Shown here piece after piece: positions 15,920 to 22,318 of a DNA stretch of 64,000 nt. Position 1 is the stretch's first letter. Each line of letters begins with the position of its first letter. Location of the stretch: NCBI RefSeq assembly GCF_001700505.1, contig NZ_MAPV01000094.1, positions 1-64,000 of the forward strand, in the 5' to 3' direction. The translations under genes and the position numbers were made by a program. The notes beneath the pieces are model-generated. The model ran no database searches and was not told where the DNA came from. It saw nothing but the letters and a program-made list of their open reading frames with translations. This DNA is from Streptomyces mutomycini. Its GTDB lineage: Bacteria; Actinomycetota; Actinomycetes; Streptomycetales; Streptomycetaceae.

Positions 15920-16048
15920 ACCGCGCGGTCACGGAGCCTTCGAAGACCAGCGGCTGGAGTTCGGCGAGCGCCGCGTGCGGCCGACGGCGTATCCGGCGGG
16001 GCCGGAGCCCATGACGGTGACGTCGCGGATGTCCGCATCCGGCCTCAC
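15920..16048 (-). pseudogene. arsT: Truncated, frameshifted thioredoxin reductase remnant (arsT)
   Basis: Starting from GTG 16046-16048, which overlaps the arsC stop as GTGA, the minus strand reads VRPDADIRDVTVMGSGPAGY, the FAD-binding opening of thioredoxin reductases. It then loses frame. In the next frame it continues HAALAELQPLVFEGSV, the following segment of the same family, so one base is missing around 15975-15985. Homology stops near 15920, right beside the VOC gene; about 280 codons of a normal 320 are absent. In described Streptomyces ars clusters arsT follows arsC and is thought to supply reductant. Here it cannot make an enzyme. Confidence 0.82.
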
Positions 16049-16458
16049 CTGGACGCCTCCGGCGCGATCTCCTCGATCAGGCCCTCGACCATGGCCTTGA
16101 TCTCGTCGCGGATCGGGCGCACAGCTGCCACACCCTGGCCGGCCGGGTCCTCGAGCTTCCAGTCCAGGTAGCGCTTGCCGGGGAAGACGGGGCAGGTGTC
16201 GCCGCAGCCCATCGTGACGCAGACGTCCGATTCCCTGACCGCGTCGACGGTGAGGACCTTCGGCTGCTCGGCGGAGATGTCGATGCCGACCTCTGCCATC
16301 GCTTCGACGGCGGCCGGGTTCACCGCGTCGCCCGGGTCGGAACCCGCGGAGCGGACCTCGACGCGGCCTCCGGCCAGGTGGGCCAGCCACGCGGCGGCCA
16401 TCTGGGAGCGGCCGGCGTTGTGGACACAGACGAACAGCACAGAGGGCTTCTCGGACAT
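16045..16458 (-). CDS. arsC: Arsenate reductase, low-molecular-weight phosphatase type
   Basis: Reduces arsenate to arsenite, which Acr3 then exports. The 137-residue protein opens with the phosphatase loop VCVHNAGRSQ, whose Cys11 is the nucleophile, followed by two more cysteines in MGCGDTCP (Cys85, Cys89) expected to form the relay disulfide, and the general-acid loop DWKLEDPAGQ. This is the thioredoxin- or mycothiol-linked class. ATG 16456-16458 has GAGAG about nine bases upstream. It is divergent from arsR with 92 bp between starts, and its stop is fused as GTGA with the wrecked arsT, so its reductant must now come from elsewhere in the genome. Confidence 0.93.
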   Translation of the reverse strand: MSEKPSVLFVCVHNAGRSQMAAAWLAHLAGGRVEVRSAGSDPGDAVNPAAVEAMAEVGIDISAEQPKVLTVDAVRESDVCVTMGCGDTCPVFPGKRYLDWKLEDPAGQGVAAVRPIRDEIKAMVEGLIEEIAPEASR

Positions 16459-16497
16459 CAGGGGATCTCTCTCGTCGCACAAAGGAATCAGGCACCC

Positions 16498-16539
16498 GTG
16501 ACATCAGCACCCGGTGGTGTCAGCATTCACTGATGTGAC
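16498..16539. promoter_or_regulatory. Candidate ArsR operator between arsC and arsR
   Basis: GTGACATCAG (16498-16507) and CTGATGTGAC (16530-16539) form an inverted repeat matching at 9 of 10 positions, in the 92-bp divergent promoter. A smaller dyad, TGAT with ATCA (16531-16546), overlaps it. ArsR repressors bind such dyads over their own promoter. Assignment is by position and symmetry. Confidence 0.5.
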
Positions 16540-16550
16540 AGTATCAGCCC

Positions 16551-16859
16551 ATGATGACGTCAGTCGACACTGAACTGATCAGGGTGCTGGGTGATCCGCT
16601 CCGGCTCCGGATCGTCACCCTGCTCGCACGCGAGACGCTGTGCACCAGCCACTTGGTGGAGGAGACCGGTGCCCGGCAGACCAACCTCTCCAACCATCTG
16701 AGGGTGCTGCGCGAGGCCGGGGTCGTGGATACCGAACCGTGCGGGCGCTTCACCTACTACAAGCTCCGCCCGGACGTCATCGCCCAGCTAGCCGGCCAGT
16801 TCGCCGACCTGGCCGATTCCGCCCGTAACGCCGCCGAGAACAAGAGGGCCTGTCCGTGA
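16551..16859 (+). CDS. arsR: ArsR-family metalloregulator
   Basis: A 102-residue winged-helix repressor. It opens VLGDPLRLRIVTLL and has the recognition helix TGARQTNLSNHLRVLREAG and wing TEPCGRFTYYKL. Cysteines are Cys31 (start of alpha-3 region), Cys64 (wing) and Cys101 (C-terminus), a pattern unlike the classic ELCVCDL box and unlike the second ArsR in this island. No clear ribosome site precedes ATG 16551; translation may be leaderless or start at the next ATG. Its TGA overlaps the acr3 GTG (GTGA at 16856-16859), so arsR and acr3 are coupled. It probably represses both divergent operons. Confidence 0.9.
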   Translation: MMTSVDTELIRVLGDPLRLRIVTLLARETLCTSHLVEETGARQTNLSNHLRVLREAGVVDTEPCGRFTYYKLRPDVIAQLAGQFADLADSARNAAENKRACP

Positions 16860-17965
16860 CCCCCACCGAAGCACCCGCGACGACGACAGAGGACTCCTCG
16901 GTCGTGAGGAAGCTGTCCACCCTGGACCGCTTCCTCGCGGTCTGGATCCTCCTGGCCATGGCGCTGGGCCTCGGTCTCGGACGTCTGATCCCCGGCCTGG
17001 ACGACGCACTGGCGAAGGTGGAGATCGGTGGCATCTCGCTGCCGATCGCCGTCGGCCTGCTGATCATGATGTATCCGGTCCTGGCGAAGGTCCGATACGA
17101 CAGGCTCGACGCGGTCACCGGCGACCGCAGGCTGATGGTCTCGTCACTGGTCATCAACTGGATCATCGGCCCGGCCGTCATGTTCGCGCTGGCGTGGATC
17201 TTCCTCCCGGACCTGCCCGAGTACCGCACCGGCCTGATCATCGTCGGCCTGGCCCGCTGCATCGCCATGGTCATCATCTGGAACGACCTGGCCTGCGGCG
17301 ACCGCGAGGCCGCCGCCGTGCTGGTGGCCCTGAACTCGGTCTTCCAGGTCATCGCGTTCGGCCTGCTCGGGTGGCTCTACCTCGACCTCCTGCCCGGCTG
17401 GCTCGGCCTGGGCGAAGGCGAGACGCTCGACATCTCCATGTGGAAGATCGCCCTGAACGTCGTCATCTTCCTCGGCGTACCCCTGCTCGCCGGCTTCCTC
17501 ACCCGCCGCCTGGGCGAGAAGAAGATGGGCCGCGAGTCCTACGAGGCGAAGTTCCTGCCGAAGATCGGCCCCTGGGCCCTGTACGGCCTGCTCTTCACGA
17601 TCATCATCCTCTTCGCCCTGCAGGGAAAGACGATCACCTCGCAGCCACTGGACGTGGTCCGCATCGCGGTGCCGCTGCTCGTGTACTTCGCGATCATGTT
17701 CTTCGGCAGCTTCCTGATCGGCAAGGCCATCGGCCTGGCCTACGACCGCACCGCGACGCTGGCCTTCACCGCGGCCGGGAACAACTTCGAGCTGGCCATC
17801 GCCGTGGCCATCGCCACCTTCGGCGTCACCTCCGGCCAGGCGCTGTCCGGCGTCGTCGGCCCGCTGATCGAGGTCCCGGTCCTGATCGCCCTCGTCTACG
17901 TCGCCCTGGCCTGGCGCAGGAAGTTCGCCTCGTCCGCACTCGCGACCAGCACCACGCAGCACTGA
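16856..17965 (+). CDS. acr3: ACR3-family arsenite efflux permease
   Basis: A 369-residue arsenite exporter with about ten membrane spans, beginning LSTLDRFLAVWILLAMALG, the characteristic ACR3 opening. The family motif GLARCIAMVIIWNDLACGD is present, with the essential Cys in GLARC. The final helix pair contains AGNNFELAIAVAIATFG, also typical. It is translationally coupled to arsR through a GTGA overlap. Substrate is As(III) and possibly Sb(III), moved by the membrane potential or proton gradient. In described Streptomyces clusters the next gene is arsO; here a 100-bp structured element and only an arsO fragment follow. Confidence 0.95.
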   Translation: MTPTEAPATTTEDSSVVRKLSTLDRFLAVWILLAMALGLGLGRLIPGLDDALAKVEIGGISLPIAVGLLIMMYPVLAKVRYDRLDAVTGDRRLMVSSLVINWIIGPAVMFALAWIFLPDLPEYRTGLIIVGLARCIAMVIIWNDLACGDREAAAVLVALNSVFQVIAFGLLGWLYLDLLPGWLGLGEGETLDISMWKIALNVVIFLGVPLLAGFLTRRLGEKKMGRESYEAKFLPKIGPWALYGLLFTIIILFALQGKTITSQPLDVVRIAVPLLVYFAIMFFGSFLIGKAIGLAYDRTATLAFTAAGNNFELAIAVAIATFGVTSGQALSGVVGPLIEVPVLIALVYVALAWRRKFASSALATSTTQH

Positions 17966-18100: not shown

Positions 18101-18349
18101 GTGACGCGAGCGGTGGATGCAGTGGTGGCCGGCGGCGGCCAAGCAGGACTCGCCGCCGGCCACCACCTGCGCCGTCAGAACCTCGACTTCGTCATTCTCG
18201 ACGCCCAGCCCGCACCGGGTGGTGCATGGCAGCACACCTGGGACTCACTCCGCCTGCTCCCCCCGGCCGCGTACTCCTCCCTCCCGGGATGGCTGATGCC
18301 CGCCCAGGACGGGGCGGAGTACCCGGACGCGGATCACGTCGTGCGGTAC
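18101..18349 (+). pseudogene. arsO: N-terminal fragment of an ArsO-like flavin monooxygenase
   Basis: From GTG 18101 the frame encodes 83 residues clearly related to flavin-containing monooxygenases: VDAVVAGGGQAGLAAGHHL (FAD-binding GxGxxG), DAQPAPGGAWQHTWDSLRLLPPAAYSSLPGW, then PDADHVVRY. After 18349 the similarity ends; the same frame continues to 18598 as basic low-complexity sequence antisense to the second arsR gene. A full enzyme would be about 350 residues and have an NADPH site, so this is a remnant. Its place after arsR-acr3 matches arsO in the described arsRBO-arsCT layout. Confidence 0.75.
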
Positions 18350-18506: not shown

Positions 18507-18863
18507 TCAGGCAGCGGCGGAGAGCAACTGCCCCATGGCCGCAAGCACGGAGGGCTCCACGCGGTAGTAGACCCACGTCCCACGCCGCTCGGAGGTGAGC
18601 AGGCCGGCCTCCCTCAGCTTCTTCAGGTGATGGGAAACCGTCGGCTGGGACACACCCACGTCGGAGATGTCGCAGACGCACGCCTCGCCGCCCTCGTGCG
18701 AGGCGACAGCGGAGAACAGGCGCAGGCGGACGGGGTCACCGAGCGCCTTGAACATCTTCGCCGTCCGCTCGGCCTCGTCCGCGCTCAACGGCCGTTCGGT
18801 CAGCGGCGGGCAGCACGGCGCGGCAACCGGCTCCAGCACAGGCAGCGACCTGGTATTCGACAT
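18507..18863 (-). CDS. Second ArsR-family regulator (ELCVCDL-like)
   Basis: A 118-residue winged-helix metalloregulator distinct from the one at 16551. It has an N-terminal extension with adjacent Cys17-Cys18, then MFKALGDPVRLRLFSAV, the metal-binding ACVCDI (Cys62, Cys64) and the recognition helix VSQPTVSHHLKKLREAGL. Cys pairs at the N-terminus and in CVCD recall the arsenite site described for Corynebacterium ArsR1. ATG 18861-18863 is chosen over 18881 because MSNTRSLP is a plausible opening, although the ribosome site (AGGTG) is weak. It is divergent from the flavoprotein/MFS pair, and a 19-bp repeat (18868-18886) overlaps its promoter. Confidence 0.9.
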   Translation of the reverse strand: MSNTRSLPVLEPVAAPCCPPLTERPLSADEAERTAKMFKALGDPVRLRLFSAVASHEGGEACVCDISDVGVSQPTVSHHLKKLREAGLLTSERRGTWVYYRVEPSVLAAMGQLLSAAA

Positions 18864-18867
18864 ACAC

Positions 18868-18886
18868 CTATGTTGACACACATCGA
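18868..18886 (+). promoter_or_regulatory. Operator-like 19-bp repeat, copy 1 (next to the second arsR)
   Basis: CTATGTTGACACACATCGA lies five bases upstream of the start of the second arsR gene (minus strand). It matches copy 2 (18974-18992) at 16 of 19 positions, in the same orientation. A likely binding site for the adjacent ArsR; this is inference. Confidence 0.55.
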
Positions 18887-18973
18887 ATCAGCGAGCGAGG
18901 AAGCGACAGCAGCCCGCATGCGCCGAAACGCGCCGGGGAGTACAGCACAAGACCCTTCGATTTCGATGAATGT

Positions 18974-18992
18974 CTATGTTGACGCCTATCGA
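18974..18992 (+). promoter_or_regulatory. Operator-like 19-bp repeat, copy 2 (before the flavoprotein gene)
   Basis: CTATGTTGACGCCTATCGA lies 62 bp before the flavoprotein start and repeats copy 1 with three differences (shared CTATGTTGAC and ATCGA ends). The two copies are 106 bp apart, ten helical turns, and flank the divergent promoters. Confidence 0.55.
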
Positions 18993-19053
18993 TACAGGTG
19001 CCATGCTGGCAGTGCAAGCCATCGACAGACGTCGAAGCAATCAGGGAGTCACC

Positions 19054-20451
19054 GTGAACGCGCCCACCACCGCCCTGCCCACCGTGGTGATCGGAGCCGG
19101 CCCCACCGGCCTGGCCGCCGCCGCCCACCTCACCGGGCACGGCATGGAAACCCTGGTCCTGGAGGCCGGCCCCACAGCGGGCAGCGCGGTGCGCGAGTGG
19201 GGGCACGTGCGGCTGTTCTCGACGTGGTCCGAGCTCGTGGACCCGGCCGCCGAGAAGCTCCTGTCCCCCACCGGCTGGACCGCACCCGACGGCGGCACCT
19301 ACCCCTCCGGCGCCGACTGGGTGGAGAAGTACCTCCAGCCGCTTGCCGACGTTCTCGGGGACAAGATCCGCTACGGCGCCACCGTCACAGGCGTGTCCCG
19401 CCTCGGCCGCGACCGCATCGTCGACGCGGACCGTGAGCAGCAGCCCTTCACCGTACGCATCAAGAGCGCGGACGGCACGGAGGAGCGGATTCTCGCCCGG
19501 GCCGTCATCGACGCCTCAGGCACCTGGTCCACCCCCAGCCCCATCGGCGCCGACGGGCTTCCCGCGCTCGGTGAGCACGCCGCCTCGGCCCGCATCTCCT
19601 ACCGCGTCCCCGACCTCCGGGACCCGGCCGTACGCGCCCGGTACGCCGGCAAGCGCACCGCCGTCATCGGCTCGGGTGCCTCCGCCTTCACCGCCCTCGC
19701 CTCGCTCGCCGACGTCGCGAAGGACGAGCCCGGCACCCACTCCGTCTGGATCCTGCGACGCGGGATCAGCGGCTCCACCTTCGGCGGCGGCAGCGCCGAC
19801 CAGCTCCCCGCCCGCGGCGCCCTGGGCCTGGCGGCGAAGGCCGCCGTCGATGCCGGACACGCCGATGCCGTCACCGGCTTCCGCACGGACGTCGTCGAAC
19901 GCGGTGACGACGAGCGTCTGATCCTCGTGGCTGACGACGGGCGCCGTCTCGACCCGGTGGACGAGGTCATCGTCCTGACCGGCCTGCGTCCCGACCTGTC
20001 CTTCCTGTCCGAGCTCCGCCTCGGCCTGGACGAGCGCCTGCAGGCACCGTCCGAGCTGGCCCCGCTGATCGATCCCAACCAGCACTCCTGCGGCACGGTC
20101 TACCCGCACGGGCACCGCGAGCTTTCCCACCCCGAAGCCGGGGTCTACCTCGTCGGCATGAAGTCCTACGGCCGCGCCCCGACCTTCCTCGCCATGACCG
20201 GATACGAGCAGGTCCGCTCCGTCACCGCCGCCCTCGCCGGTGACATGGAGTCCGCCGACCGCGTCGAACTCACCCTCCCCGAGACCGGAGTCTGCGGCGG
20301 GGCCGGACTCTTCGACGACCCCTCCGCAGGAGAAGCGGACGGCGGCGGCTGCTGCGCCCCGGCGCCCGCCCTGGTGCAGATCGGCTCCTCCGCGCCCGCT
20401 TCCACCGCGGCTGCCGAGGAGCCCGCGCCGTCAGGTGGCTGCTGCGCGTGA
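19054..20451 (+). CDS. ArsO-like FAD/NAD(P)-binding flavoprotein with Cys-Cys tail
   Basis: A 465-residue two-dinucleotide flavoprotein: FAD-binding VVIGAGPTGLAAAAHL (about 13-28) and a second Rossmann motif TAVIGSGASAFTAL (about 205-218), the plan of flavin monooxygenases and disulfide oxidoreductases, but without the CxxC of the latter. The tail after residue 410 is unusual: Cys414, then vicinal Cys433-434 and a final Cys463-464, well placed to bind a trivalent metalloid. GTG 19054 has GGGAG seven bases upstream; the open frame to 18970 runs over the operator-like repeat. The stop overlaps the MFS start as GTGA. The reaction is unknown: oxidation of an arsenical or supply of a modified substrate to the pump are guesses. 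Confidence 0.85.
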   Translation: MNAPTTALPTVVIGAGPTGLAAAAHLTGHGMETLVLEAGPTAGSAVREWGHVRLFSTWSELVDPAAEKLLSPTGWTAPDGGTYPSGADWVEKYLQPLADVLGDKIRYGATVTGVSRLGRDRIVDADREQQPFTVRIKSADGTEERILARAVIDASGTWSTPSPIGADGLPALGEHAASARISYRVPDLRDPAVRARYAGKRTAVIGSGASAFTALASLADVAKDEPGTHSVWILRRGISGSTFGGGSADQLPARGALGLAAKAAVDAGHADAVTGFRTDVVERGDDERLILVADDGRRLDPVDEVIVLTGLRPDLSFLSELRLGLDERLQAPSELAPLIDPNQHSCGTVYPHGHRELSHPEAGVYLVGMKSYGRAPTFLAMTGYEQVRSVTAALAGDMESADRVELTLPETGVCGGAGLFDDPSAGEADGGGCCAPAPALVQIGSSAPASTAAAEEPAPSGGCCA

Positions 20452-21716
20452 CCGAGACCGACGCCCGCGGGGCCGCGACCGGAACAGGGGACCGGTCGCG
20501 ACCCCGGGGAGTCCTCCCGGCCCTGTGCGCCACACAGGTCACCAGCTGGGGCGTCGTCTTCTACGCCTTCCCCGTCCTCAACCCCCAGATCACCGAGAAC
20601 ACCGGCTGGCCGCCCGGGGCGACGACAGCGGCGTTCTCCCTCGCCCTGCTCATCTCCGCGTTCGCCGGAATACGGGTGGGCCGGATCATCGACCACCGTG
20701 GTCCCCGCACCGTCATGACGGCCGGCTCCGTCCTCGGCGTGCTGAGCATCCTCGTCGTCGCCGCCGCCCCGAACCTGCCTCTCTTCGCCTCCGGTTGGGC
20801 GCTGGCCGGATTCGCAATGGCGGCCACCTTCTACCAGCCCGCCTTCGCCGCGGTCACCCGCTGGTGGGCCCCCGACCACGTCCGCGCACTGACCATCGTG
20901 ACCCTCGCCGGCGGACTGGCCTCCACTCTCTTCGCACCCCTCACCGCAGCGCTGGCCGGACACCTCTCCTGGCGCATGACCTACACGGTGCTCGCCGTCC
21001 TCCTCGCCGTCGTGACGATCCCCGCCCACGCGCTGGCACTCAGAGCTCCCTGGCCCCCAGCGCCATCGCCCCCGAAAATTCACGCCGGCCAGTCCGCGAG
21101 GACGGCGGCCCACAGCCGCCCCTTCCGCATGCTCGCGGTAGCACTCACCCTCTCCGCGTTCACCGTCTCGGCCGTGGTCGTCGCCCTGGTCCCCCTCCTG
21201 CTGGAACGCGGTTACTCCACCAGCGAGGCGGCGTGGGCACTCGGACTCGGCGGCGCCGGACAGACCCTCGGACGCACCCTGTACGCAAGTCTCGCCCGCC
21301 GCACCGGAGTCACCGCCCGCACGACCACACTGATCGCACTCGGCGGCCTCACCACCGCGGCACTCGCACTCAGCCCCGGCCCTTACGGACTGCTGATCGC
21401 TCTGTCGATCGCCGCCGGGATGGTCCGGGGCAACCTCACCCTGCTCCAGGCAACTGCGATCACCGACCGCTGGGGCACCACCCACTACGGCCGCCTGTCC
21501 GGCCTCCTGGCGGCACCGACCACCACCGCCTCCGCCCTCGCCCCCTTCGCGGGCGCCGCACTGGCGATACCGCTGGGCGGCTACCCGCACGTGTTCGGAG
21601 CGCTGGCGGCGGTCTCCTCGCTCGCCTCCGCAGCCGCCCTCCGCGCGGCTCCGTACCCGCCCCGGCATCAAGCAGACGAAACCGGCAGAACATCCGGGGA
21701 CAGTGCGCCGACGTGA
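20448..21716 (+). CDS. MFS efflux transporter of the second ars module
   Basis: A 422-residue major-facilitator permease with 12 predicted spans and the loop motif GRIIDHRGPRTVM between TM2 and TM3. It starts at GTG 20448, overlapping the flavoprotein stop (GTGA), so the two are translated together. The control by a neighbouring ArsR points to a metalloid or organo-arsenical substrate; family-level homology alone does not give one. The last 49 bases overlap the convergent tdk 3-prime end (21668-21716), marking the right edge of the island. It is not an ACR3, ArsB or ArsP protein. Confidence 0.85.
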   Translation: MTETDARGAATGTGDRSRPRGVLPALCATQVTSWGVVFYAFPVLNPQITENTGWPPGATTAAFSLALLISAFAGIRVGRIIDHRGPRTVMTAGSVLGVLSILVVAAAPNLPLFASGWALAGFAMAATFYQPAFAAVTRWWAPDHVRALTIVTLAGGLASTLFAPLTAALAGHLSWRMTYTVLAVLLAVVTIPAHALALRAPWPPAPSPPKIHAGQSARTAAHSRPFRMLAVALTLSAFTVSAVVVALVPLLLERGYSTSEAAWALGLGGAGQTLGRTLYASLARRTGVTARTTTLIALGGLTTAALALSPGPYGLLIALSIAAGMVRGNLTLLQATAITDRWGTTHYGRLSGLLAAPTTTASALAPFAGAALAIPLGGYPHVFGALAAVSSLASAAALRAAPYPPRHQADETGRTSGDSAPT

Positions 21717-22318
21717 GCGGACGCGGCAGTCATACGGCGCCGGTGGTGACGGCGGCAGAGAACCTCGTAACCGATCTCGCCCATCGGCCGGTTCACATCA
21801 CCGACCACGACCTGGGCGCCCTCGACGACCATCTCGCCGTCTATGGTCCGCGCGTTGTGCGTGGCACGGGCTCCGCACCAGCACAGAGCCTCGACCTGGA
21901 GCTGCTCGATCCGGTCCGCCAGCTCGATCAGTCGCTGCGAACCGGGAAACAGCCTCGTGCGGAAGTCCGTCGTGATACCGAAAGCGAAGACGTCCATCCC
22001 CAAGTCGTCCACGACGCGCGCCAGTTGATCAATCTGGGCAGGAGCCAGGAACTGCGCCTCGTCCACGATCACGTAGTCGACCCTGCCGCCCTTGGTCAGC
22101 TGGTCAACCAGGTACGCGTAGAGGTCCATCCCCTCGTTCGCCTCGACGGCCTCCGTCACCAGACCCAGCCGTGAGGACAACTTGCCCTCACCAGCCCGGT
22201 CGTCCCGGGTGAAGATCACACCCCGGAGCCCCCGCGCCGACCGGTTGTGTCCGATCTGGAGTGCCAGAGTGCTCTTTCCGCAGTCCATCGTCCCGGAGAA
22301 GAACACGAGCTCGGGCAT
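21668..22318 (-). CDS. tdk: Thymidine kinase (type II)
   Basis: Phosphorylates thymidine to dTMP in nucleotide salvage. The 216-residue protein has the P-loop GTMDCGKST (9-17), VIVDEAQF (Walker-B-like, catalytic Glu region), the structural-zinc cysteines in ALCWCGARATH with a distal C-RRHH, and the lasso-domain signature. The last 20 residues (after HHRRR) are non-conserved and overlap the end of the MFS gene on the opposite strand by 49 bases, so they may be new sequence acquired when the island joined. ATG 22316-22318. A lone gene on its transcript with the phosphodiesterase gene 55 bp upstream. Confidence 0.92.
   Translation of the reverse strand: MPELVFFSGTMDCGKSTLALQIGHNRSARGLRGVIFTRDDRAGEGKLSSRLGLVTEAVEANEGMDLYAYLVDQLTKGGRVDYVIVDEAQFLAPAQIDQLARVVDDLGMDVFAFGITTDFRTRLFPGSQRLIELADRIEQLQVEALCWCGARATHNARTIDGEMVVEGAQVVVGDVNRPMGEIGYEVLCRRHHRRRMTAASAHVGALSPDVLPVSSA

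Follow-up and report, generated by a model that had tools for sequence, protein, structure and literature searches.

An arsenic-linked ArsR-flavoprotein-exporter unit of probable ArsV type in Streptomyces mutomycini

Background

Does the second ArsR-governed gene set of Streptomyces mutomycini constitute an undescribed arsenic system? The set consists of a flavoprotein gene, a downstream gene for a predicted exporter of the major facilitator superfamily (MFS) and a divergent arsR gene (arsR2), at positions 18,507 to 21,716 of a 64,000-nucleotide stretch of DNA (hereafter the window; contig NZ_MAPV01000094.1 of assembly GCF_001700505.1, positions 1 to 64,000). An initial annotation, made from the sequence letters, had regarded it as the best candidate in the window for an undescribed system, in which a redox enzyme under arsenic control could alter a metalloid, perhaps a trivalent organo-arsenical, and a pump expel the product. 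Our analysis finds a unit that is real, arsenic-linked and of a described kind, whose principle is probably not new. At a probability of roughly 70%, we read it as an ArsV-kind unit for inducible detoxification; that its enzyme is an ArsV-type oxidase appears, on sequence grounds, equally probable.

Results

The flavoprotein is 48% identical to, and homologous with, the flavoprotein encoded beside arsK in Ensifer adhaerens (M8 copy). On two E. adhaerens plasmids the genes run arsR-flavoprotein-arsK, the last two overlapping; Rhizobium rhizogenes likewise carries arsR, the flavoprotein gene and arsK, and arsR-flavoprotein-MFS sets occur in Bosea, Neotabrizicola, Afipia and Shinella. We take the Ensifer arrangement to be that of arsV, a gene which reportedly comes from E. 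adhaerens ST2, was published as a methylarsenite-oxidase gene and is reported usually to adjoin arsK or another transporter gene. In the flavoprotein tree (unrooted, with TrxB and Kocuria on long branches), 26 flavoproteins from Actinomycetota, alphaproteobacteria and Bacillales fell on one side of a 100/100 branch, across which lay ArsO and a second flavin adenine dinucleotide (FAD) oxidoreductase found at some of these loci. Identity with ArsO was rejected: the window protein scored 56.3 bits against a cut-off of 425, while the ArsO of strain FR-008 scored 554.1 in the same test, and the 100/100 branch split the two.

The genomic company of the family points to arsenic. We took as named loci the best 80 of at least 588 confirmed relatives, a selection that for this reason leans to Streptomyces. 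A divergent arsR gene lay within 2 kilobases (kb) in 59 of the 80 loci and a co-directional gene for the window-type MFS within 900 base pairs in 28, the latter count depending on a 100-bit threshold; the window, too, has both an ArsR and an adjacent transporter, the company expected of arsV. In contrast, the 12 queries gave no match at the same scores in 20 control regions of 13.4 kb, at fixed places on five congeneric chromosomes. The neighbourhood association exceeds chance, and recurrence of the pair beside ArsR in other genomes, which the initial annotation had suggested looking for, was borne out. Counted as lower bounds (some flanks were shorter than 6 kb), the neighbours comprised ArsR (64), ArsC (43), ACR3 (34), window-type MFS (28), ArsO (28), the second FAD oxidoreductase (17), ArsI-type proteins (17), aquaglyceroporin-like proteins (13) and TrxB (9). 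The ArsI-type gene directly followed the flavoprotein gene in all 17 cases and preceded the pump where both occurred. One such protein, when scanned, scored 198.9 bits (ArsI/CadI cut-off 116), and 16 of the 17 (exception, L136) held a vicinal CysCys, a feature that PMC6514093 links to trivalent organoarsenicals. In other bacteria the family adjoins arsK, arsH, arsJ, acr3, arsC, ArsN1-like or ArsI-type genes; an ArsN1a beside one relative reached 218.6 bits (cut-off 170), other ArsN1-like genes remaining below it. We count this organoarsenical company (ArsI-type, arsH, arsJ and ArsN1a genes) in favour of the ArsV-type reading.

Several ArsI-type proteins (L080, L083, L088 and others) carry extra C-terminal CC pairs resembling the flavoprotein tail, so the two enzymes may share one capture principle.

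The family was found in 32 of 61 related genomes and 18 of 36 of the same genus, the gene being in pieces in G027, G037 and G059, and in 133 plasmid records ranging from Streptomyces and Rhodococcus to Ensifer, Bosea, Cytobacillus and Staphylococcus. Neither E. adhaerens ST2 nor Paracoccus sp. SY appeared among the plasmid records listed. TniQ, TniB/ATP-binding and Mu-type transposase genes flank plasmid ars units (L067, L068, L072 and L074), hinting at Tn7/Tn5053-like carriage. On the Staphylococcus plasmid SAP008A (L071), from poultry litter, ArsR and the flavoprotein lie beside reverse-transcriptase and SLATT-domain genes.

Re-reading of the coordinates upheld the gene structure first proposed: all three genes are open, arsR2 diverges from an intact flavoprotein gene, and the stop of the latter (ending at 20451) is overlapped through GTGA by the MFS start at 20448. 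The flavoprotein starts with GTG, preceded by GGGAG, a position from which several homologues also align; an in-frame ATG further upstream, at 18970, coincides with a putative operator. The two-Rossmann architecture held as well, with Pfam Pyr_redox_3 and Pyr_redox_2 over their cut-offs in a gene open throughout. The predicted fold is that of YpdA and the flavin monooxygenases (FMO): the top structural match was YpdA (Foldseek E 2.2e-18, Z 27.6) and FMO chains followed at Z 24.4, in keeping with a predicted FAD- and NADPH-binding (NADPH, reduced nicotinamide adenine dinucleotide phosphate) monooxygenase fold with two dinucleotide-binding domains.

Numbered from the GTG start, the flavoprotein has cysteines only at 346, 414, 433, 434, 463 and 464. 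The initial annotation had placed Cys414 and the pairs 433-434 and 463-464 exactly; it had overlooked Cys346, and the last pair proved variable among relatives. All 80 loci retain both motifs, HSCG (Cys346) and TGVC (Cys414), together with one CC or more, and 31 of them have a minimum of two. Among 13 diverse members Cys346 and Cys414 were invariant and Cys433 nearly so, and the tail of the Staphylococcus member had no CC. The CC tail is real but only partly conserved, and the 463-464 pair is optional. A thioredoxin reductase (ArsT) was rejected as an identity, the redox-active CxxC being absent and no cysteine preceding residue 346.

Many relatives end GGC-TGA (or DGC-TGA) where others have GGCC, which is suggestive of selenocysteine. 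We rejected a selenocysteine tail because no selenocysteine tRNA exceeded the cut-off in the eight searched genomes with such tails, TGA closes most of these genes anyway (76 of 79 stops determined for the 80 loci) and one relative, in G040, ends GGC-TAA. In all eight searched genomes with GGC-TGA or DGC-TGA tails (G006, G009, G012, G013, G021, G024, G030 and G034; G007 and G025 were left out) the best hits reached 44.1-45.8 bits, against a cut-off of 47. Across the 16 genomes searched, clear matches (74 and 77 bits) came only from the host genome (G000) and G003, both of whose tails hold CC, and four further genomes, G040 among them, passed narrowly (47.2-48.8 bits). The host match (73.9 bits) lies at G000:C235:64145-64236 (L066).

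The regulator, typed as CVCD by the initial annotation, indeed contains Cys62-Val-Cys64-Asp, to which an overlooked N-terminal pair, Cys17-Cys18, must be added; it has no other cysteines. Its closest solved relative is an ArsR, 6j0e (E 1.6e-22), which we take to be that of C. glutamicum. Among 60 ArsR proteins (the window and 59 loci) the N-terminal CC was present in 58 and CxC in 60, while a C-terminal CC after the SHHL motif was found in none. According to PMC6514093, ArsR proteins selective for methylarsenite, MAs(III), bear a C-terminal Cys pair (Cys101-102); the window ArsR has no such pair. ArsR proteins of another type, with a C-terminal CC, accompany the same enzyme family in five other examples (four alphaproteobacteria and Rhodococcus opacus). 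With two ArsR types beside one enzyme family, the regulator was therefore exchanged and the enzyme kept.

In Rhodococcus opacus B4 (L069 5025-5894) an ArsR is fused to an ArsN1a-like acetyltransferase (140.5 bits for that part, cut-off 170) and diverges from a flavoprotein-MFS pair.

Two copies of CTATGTTGAC look like operators of the divergent ArsR. The window holds the 10-base core at just two places, each inside the intergenic gap of the divergent genes (0.02 expected), and the core was present in 54 of 79 homologue upstream regions of 200 bases. With up to three mismatches allowed, the longer operator pattern matched sites A and B (0 and 1 mismatch) and one place elsewhere (3 mismatches) in the host's own genome, where the pattern read backwards as a control gave one match. 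Since the pattern is nearly confined to sites A and B genome-wide, the ArsR most likely controls only its own intergenic gap. The unit is thus probably regulated by its own ArsR; the earlier proposal of arsenic control fares well to this extent, with control by the divergent ArsR likely from the operator-like pair and the arsenic context supported.

The pump departs from the named families. The window MFS passed general Pfam models and fell short of its nearest named NCBIfam family, ArsK (141.9 bits against a cut-off of 400, with Ensifer ArsK at 515.3 in the same test), and we rejected it as an ArsK. Its identity is 25% with Ensifer ArsK, 32% with the Bosea pump and 26% with the pump beside the flavoprotein in a member of the Paracoccaceae (Neotabrizicola). 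The actinobacterial pumps form a clade separate from ArsK in a tree that is unrooted and has ArsJ and a Cytobacillus pump on long branches; we found no name for this clade among the families compared.

The enzyme often occurs without the pump. The 61 genomes held the flavoprotein in 32 and close MFS homologues in six, one of the six without the enzyme. These six gave seven MFS matches (E <=1e-40): five directly behind the flavoprotein gene, one of them a half gene (G012); one for the distant other half of the G012 gene; and one protein, 51% identical, in the genome without flavoprotein. Judged by this threshold, the pump occurs almost solely with the flavoprotein while most flavoproteins lack such a pump, which argues against an obligatory pair: the enzyme does not depend on a window-type pump. 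In a second family, some genomes have looser MFS relatives behind the flavoprotein gene. A previous set of 35, grouped less strictly and relying on crude gene finding, had the pump in 11 cases. The halves of the G012 homologue (3338402-3339031 and 2995017-2995586 of G012:C1) lie 343 kb apart, as if broken by rearrangement.

The window copy resembles two streptomycete plasmids. The nearest record among those compared, pFRL5 of Streptomyces sp. F8, is 91% identical in DNA over arsR2 and flavoprotein-MFS, and has between arsR2 and the flavoprotein gene a 1071-base-pair FAD oxidoreductase gene that is absent from the window, where 61 bases take the place of about 1.2 kb (18900-18962 vs L068 6718-7908); both operator-like sites remain although that gene is absent. 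In strain FR-008, on pSSFR1 (presumably the linear plasmid pHZ227 of papers), arsR2-flavoprotein-MFS stands right beside arsR-arsB-arsO and arsC-trxB of the arsRBOCT cluster; DNA identity to the window is 86% over the arsC-arsR1-acr3 stretch and 80% over flavoprotein-MFS. The FR-008 copies are annotated merely as 'NAD(P)-binding domain-containing protein' and 'MFS transporter'. Unlike FR-008, the window has no trxB there, no second FAD oxidoreductase gene, which in FR-008 too separates arsR2 from the flavoprotein gene, and an arsO cut short: the remnant, 72% identical to FR-008 ArsO over 79 residues, adjoins an intact acr3, and no ArsO similarity was found between it and arsR2. With arsO truncated and the second oxidoreductase gene absent, the window therefore looks like a cut-down FR-008 arrangement.

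The unit itself is set between an arsC / arsR1-acr3 unit (16045-17965) and a thymidine-kinase-like gene (Table 1).

Table 1. Positions of the unit, its putative operators and the adjoining genes in the window
Feature	Position	Strand	Remarks
arsC, arsenate reductase	16045-16482	-	Pfam LMWPc 71.4 bits; below cut-off with the NCBIfam models for arsenate reductase
arsR1	16551-16859	+	NF033788 78.7 bits, cut-off 55
acr3, arsenite pump	16856-17965	+	TIGR00832 439.6 bits, cut-off 282.8
arsO remnant	18101-18349	+	residues ~6-84 of 356; NF040505 profile positions 1-79 only
arsR2, ArsR/SmtB repressor, 118 residues	18507-18863	-	HTH_metalloreg (NF033788) 93.7 bits, cut-off 55
Putative operator A, TTCGA-N22-TCGAA	18856-18887		core CTATGTTGAC at 18868-18877; overlaps arsR start codon
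Putative operator B, TTCGA-N22-TCGAT	18962-18993		core CTATGTTGAC at 18974-18983; upstream of flavoprotein gene
Flavoprotein, 465 residues, class B flavin-monooxygenase-like, probably ArsV-type	19054-20451	+	Pfam Pyr_redox_3 and Pyr_redox_2 over cut-off
MFS exporter (predicted), 422 residues	20448-21716	+	nearest named family ArsK, below cut-off (see text)
Thymidine-kinase-like gene (judged by eye)	21668-22318	opposite to MFS gene	

Discussion

In its ArsR-flavoprotein-MFS architecture and its proposed chemistry the unit corresponds to published ArsV paired with ArsK or ArsW, so the idea of an undescribed system is not supported. That neither partner is a classic ars gene is correct for ArsB, ACR3, ArsP, ArsJ and ArsH and overlooks ArsK and ArsV; that the enzyme alters an arsenical and the pump expels the product is supported as an idea, drawn from sequence, though not as a novel principle. 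The title of its paper describes ArsV as a flavin monooxygenase oxidising organoarsenicals and antimonite. A review treats ArsV together with ArsW, ArsP and ArsK, which we count as support for the ArsV-type reading, and gives the ArsV/ArsW paper as the common source for an item on Paracoccus sp. SY and for arsK of E. adhaerens ST2. With the ArsV and ArsK/ArsW sets of those two strains the window shares the ArsR-flavoprotein-MFS set, and its flavoprotein belongs to one family with those encoded beside arsK in two further E. adhaerens strains. The differences lie in the pump, of another clade, in the flavoprotein tail and, relative to Ensifer, in an ArsR that is divergent rather than co-directional and carries an N-terminal CC and CVC instead of a C-terminal CC. 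ArsO (NF040505) is likewise an FAD monooxygenase-like gene of ars clusters, and ArsK (NF033733) an MFS pump beside the same flavoprotein family. No mention of a flavoprotein-MFS pair in Streptomyces was found in the literature searched, which consisted mostly of titles and passages and so does not show absence in print.

As an ArsV-kind unit, the system would work as follows. Without arsenic, ArsR would occupy both sites and shut off both directions, until it is released by arsenite, antimonite or methylarsenite, the trivalent arsenical that Cys17-Cys18 and the CVC at 62-64 would bind. The flavoprotein, with NADPH and FAD, would bind the trivalent (organo)arsenical through thiols (Cys346, Cys414) and oxidise As(III) to As(V), which does not stay attached to thiols; the MFS pump would then export the arsenical, most likely the pentavalent product, while the neighbouring acr3-arsC half would deal with inorganic arsenic. 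MerA is a flavoenzyme whose C-terminal CC tail captures a thiol-loving metal and hands it over, and the flexible CC tail here may capture the metalloid and pass it on in a similar way; unlike MerA, the window flavoprotein lacks a CxxC active-site pair. A more far-reaching version, in which the actinobacterial MFS represents a new family of exporters that serves the flavoprotein product alone (e.g., a pentavalent organoarsenical) and the CC tail a metalloid-collecting arm feeding Cys346 and Cys414 at the flavin, seems to us possible and distinctly less likely than not to hold.

Several observations weigh against the ArsV-type reading: i) the ArsV label rests on architecture, species and published abstracts, the sequence comparison being with the flavoprotein beside Ensifer arsK; ii) the pump, at its low identity to Ensifer ArsK, falls outside the ArsK clade, and in most places seen the enzyme occurs without the window-type pump (28 of 80 loci with this MFS at or above 100 bits); iii) the ArsR, having no C-terminal CC, does not look MAs(III)-selective; iv) the best match of the predicted fold, YpdA, is a disulfide reductase; v) the structure model is middling (predicted local distance difference test score 71, and below 50 at residues 315-350, around Cys346, and 406-465, the tail), too uncertain to place Cys346, Cys414 or the tail relative to FAD, its alignment being shallow in diversity because it was built from the window protein and just 34 of the 80 named loci; vi) in the host's own genome no ArsM scored over the cut-off, and a search for an ArsI-type protein with one query and no positive control gave no match. 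Given these two empty searches, any organoarsenical is probably of external origin.

The most serious rival, still an unlikely one in our judgement, is that antimonite or inorganic arsenite is the main compound oxidised by the enzyme, and that the pump simply exports As(III)/Sb(III) in the manner of ArsK. An ArsR with CC and CVC and no C-terminal CC would fit a sensor of inorganic As(III)/Sb(III), and ArsK is indeed the nearest named pump; the window pump nevertheless lies outside that clade, an arsenite pump, acr3, is already adjacent, and in 17 of 80 loci the enzyme gene is followed by an ArsI-type gene, which precedes the pump wherever the two occur together. Somewhat less credible is a thiol or disulfide reductase, akin to YpdA or working for the mycothiol system, which restores thiol pools under arsenic stress or releases arsenic from thiol conjugates, with the pump exporting arsenite or a conjugate. 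The top predicted-fold match, the vicinal cysteines of the tail and the relatives that adjoin trxB and arsC would suit such an enzyme. However, FMO structures are nearly as close as YpdA, and the ArsI, arsH and ArsN1 neighbours point to organoarsenicals. The catalytic Cys of YpdA is N-terminal, and this rival is weakened because the flavoprotein, with no cysteine in residues 1-345, is missing it; the absence of CxxC together with the lack of any Cys before 346 likewise argues against a thioredoxin-reductase role.

That the operon is a decayed leftover without present function, like the adjacent cut arsO, is very improbable. The truncation of arsO, the absence of the second oxidoreductase gene relative to pFRL5 and FR-008 and the many relatives without a window-type MFS would agree with decay, but the flavoprotein, MFS and ArsR genes are intact at 91% DNA identity to pFRL5, and the invariant residues and both operator-like sites have been retained.

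The ArsV-type reading places a probable organoarsenical oxidase, together with an unnamed pump clade, in Streptomyces and relatives, and extends to an FR-008 plasmid, from the very strain in which the arsRBOCT cluster is known. With its invariant cysteines and putative operator pair, the proposal lends itself to direct testing. If the enzyme does oxidise trivalent organoarsenicals, 18 of the 36 congeners searched, or roughly half, could possess the trait, although in one of them the gene is in pieces; the trait would then matter for the cycling of arsenic in soil and for protection there from arsenical antibiotics.

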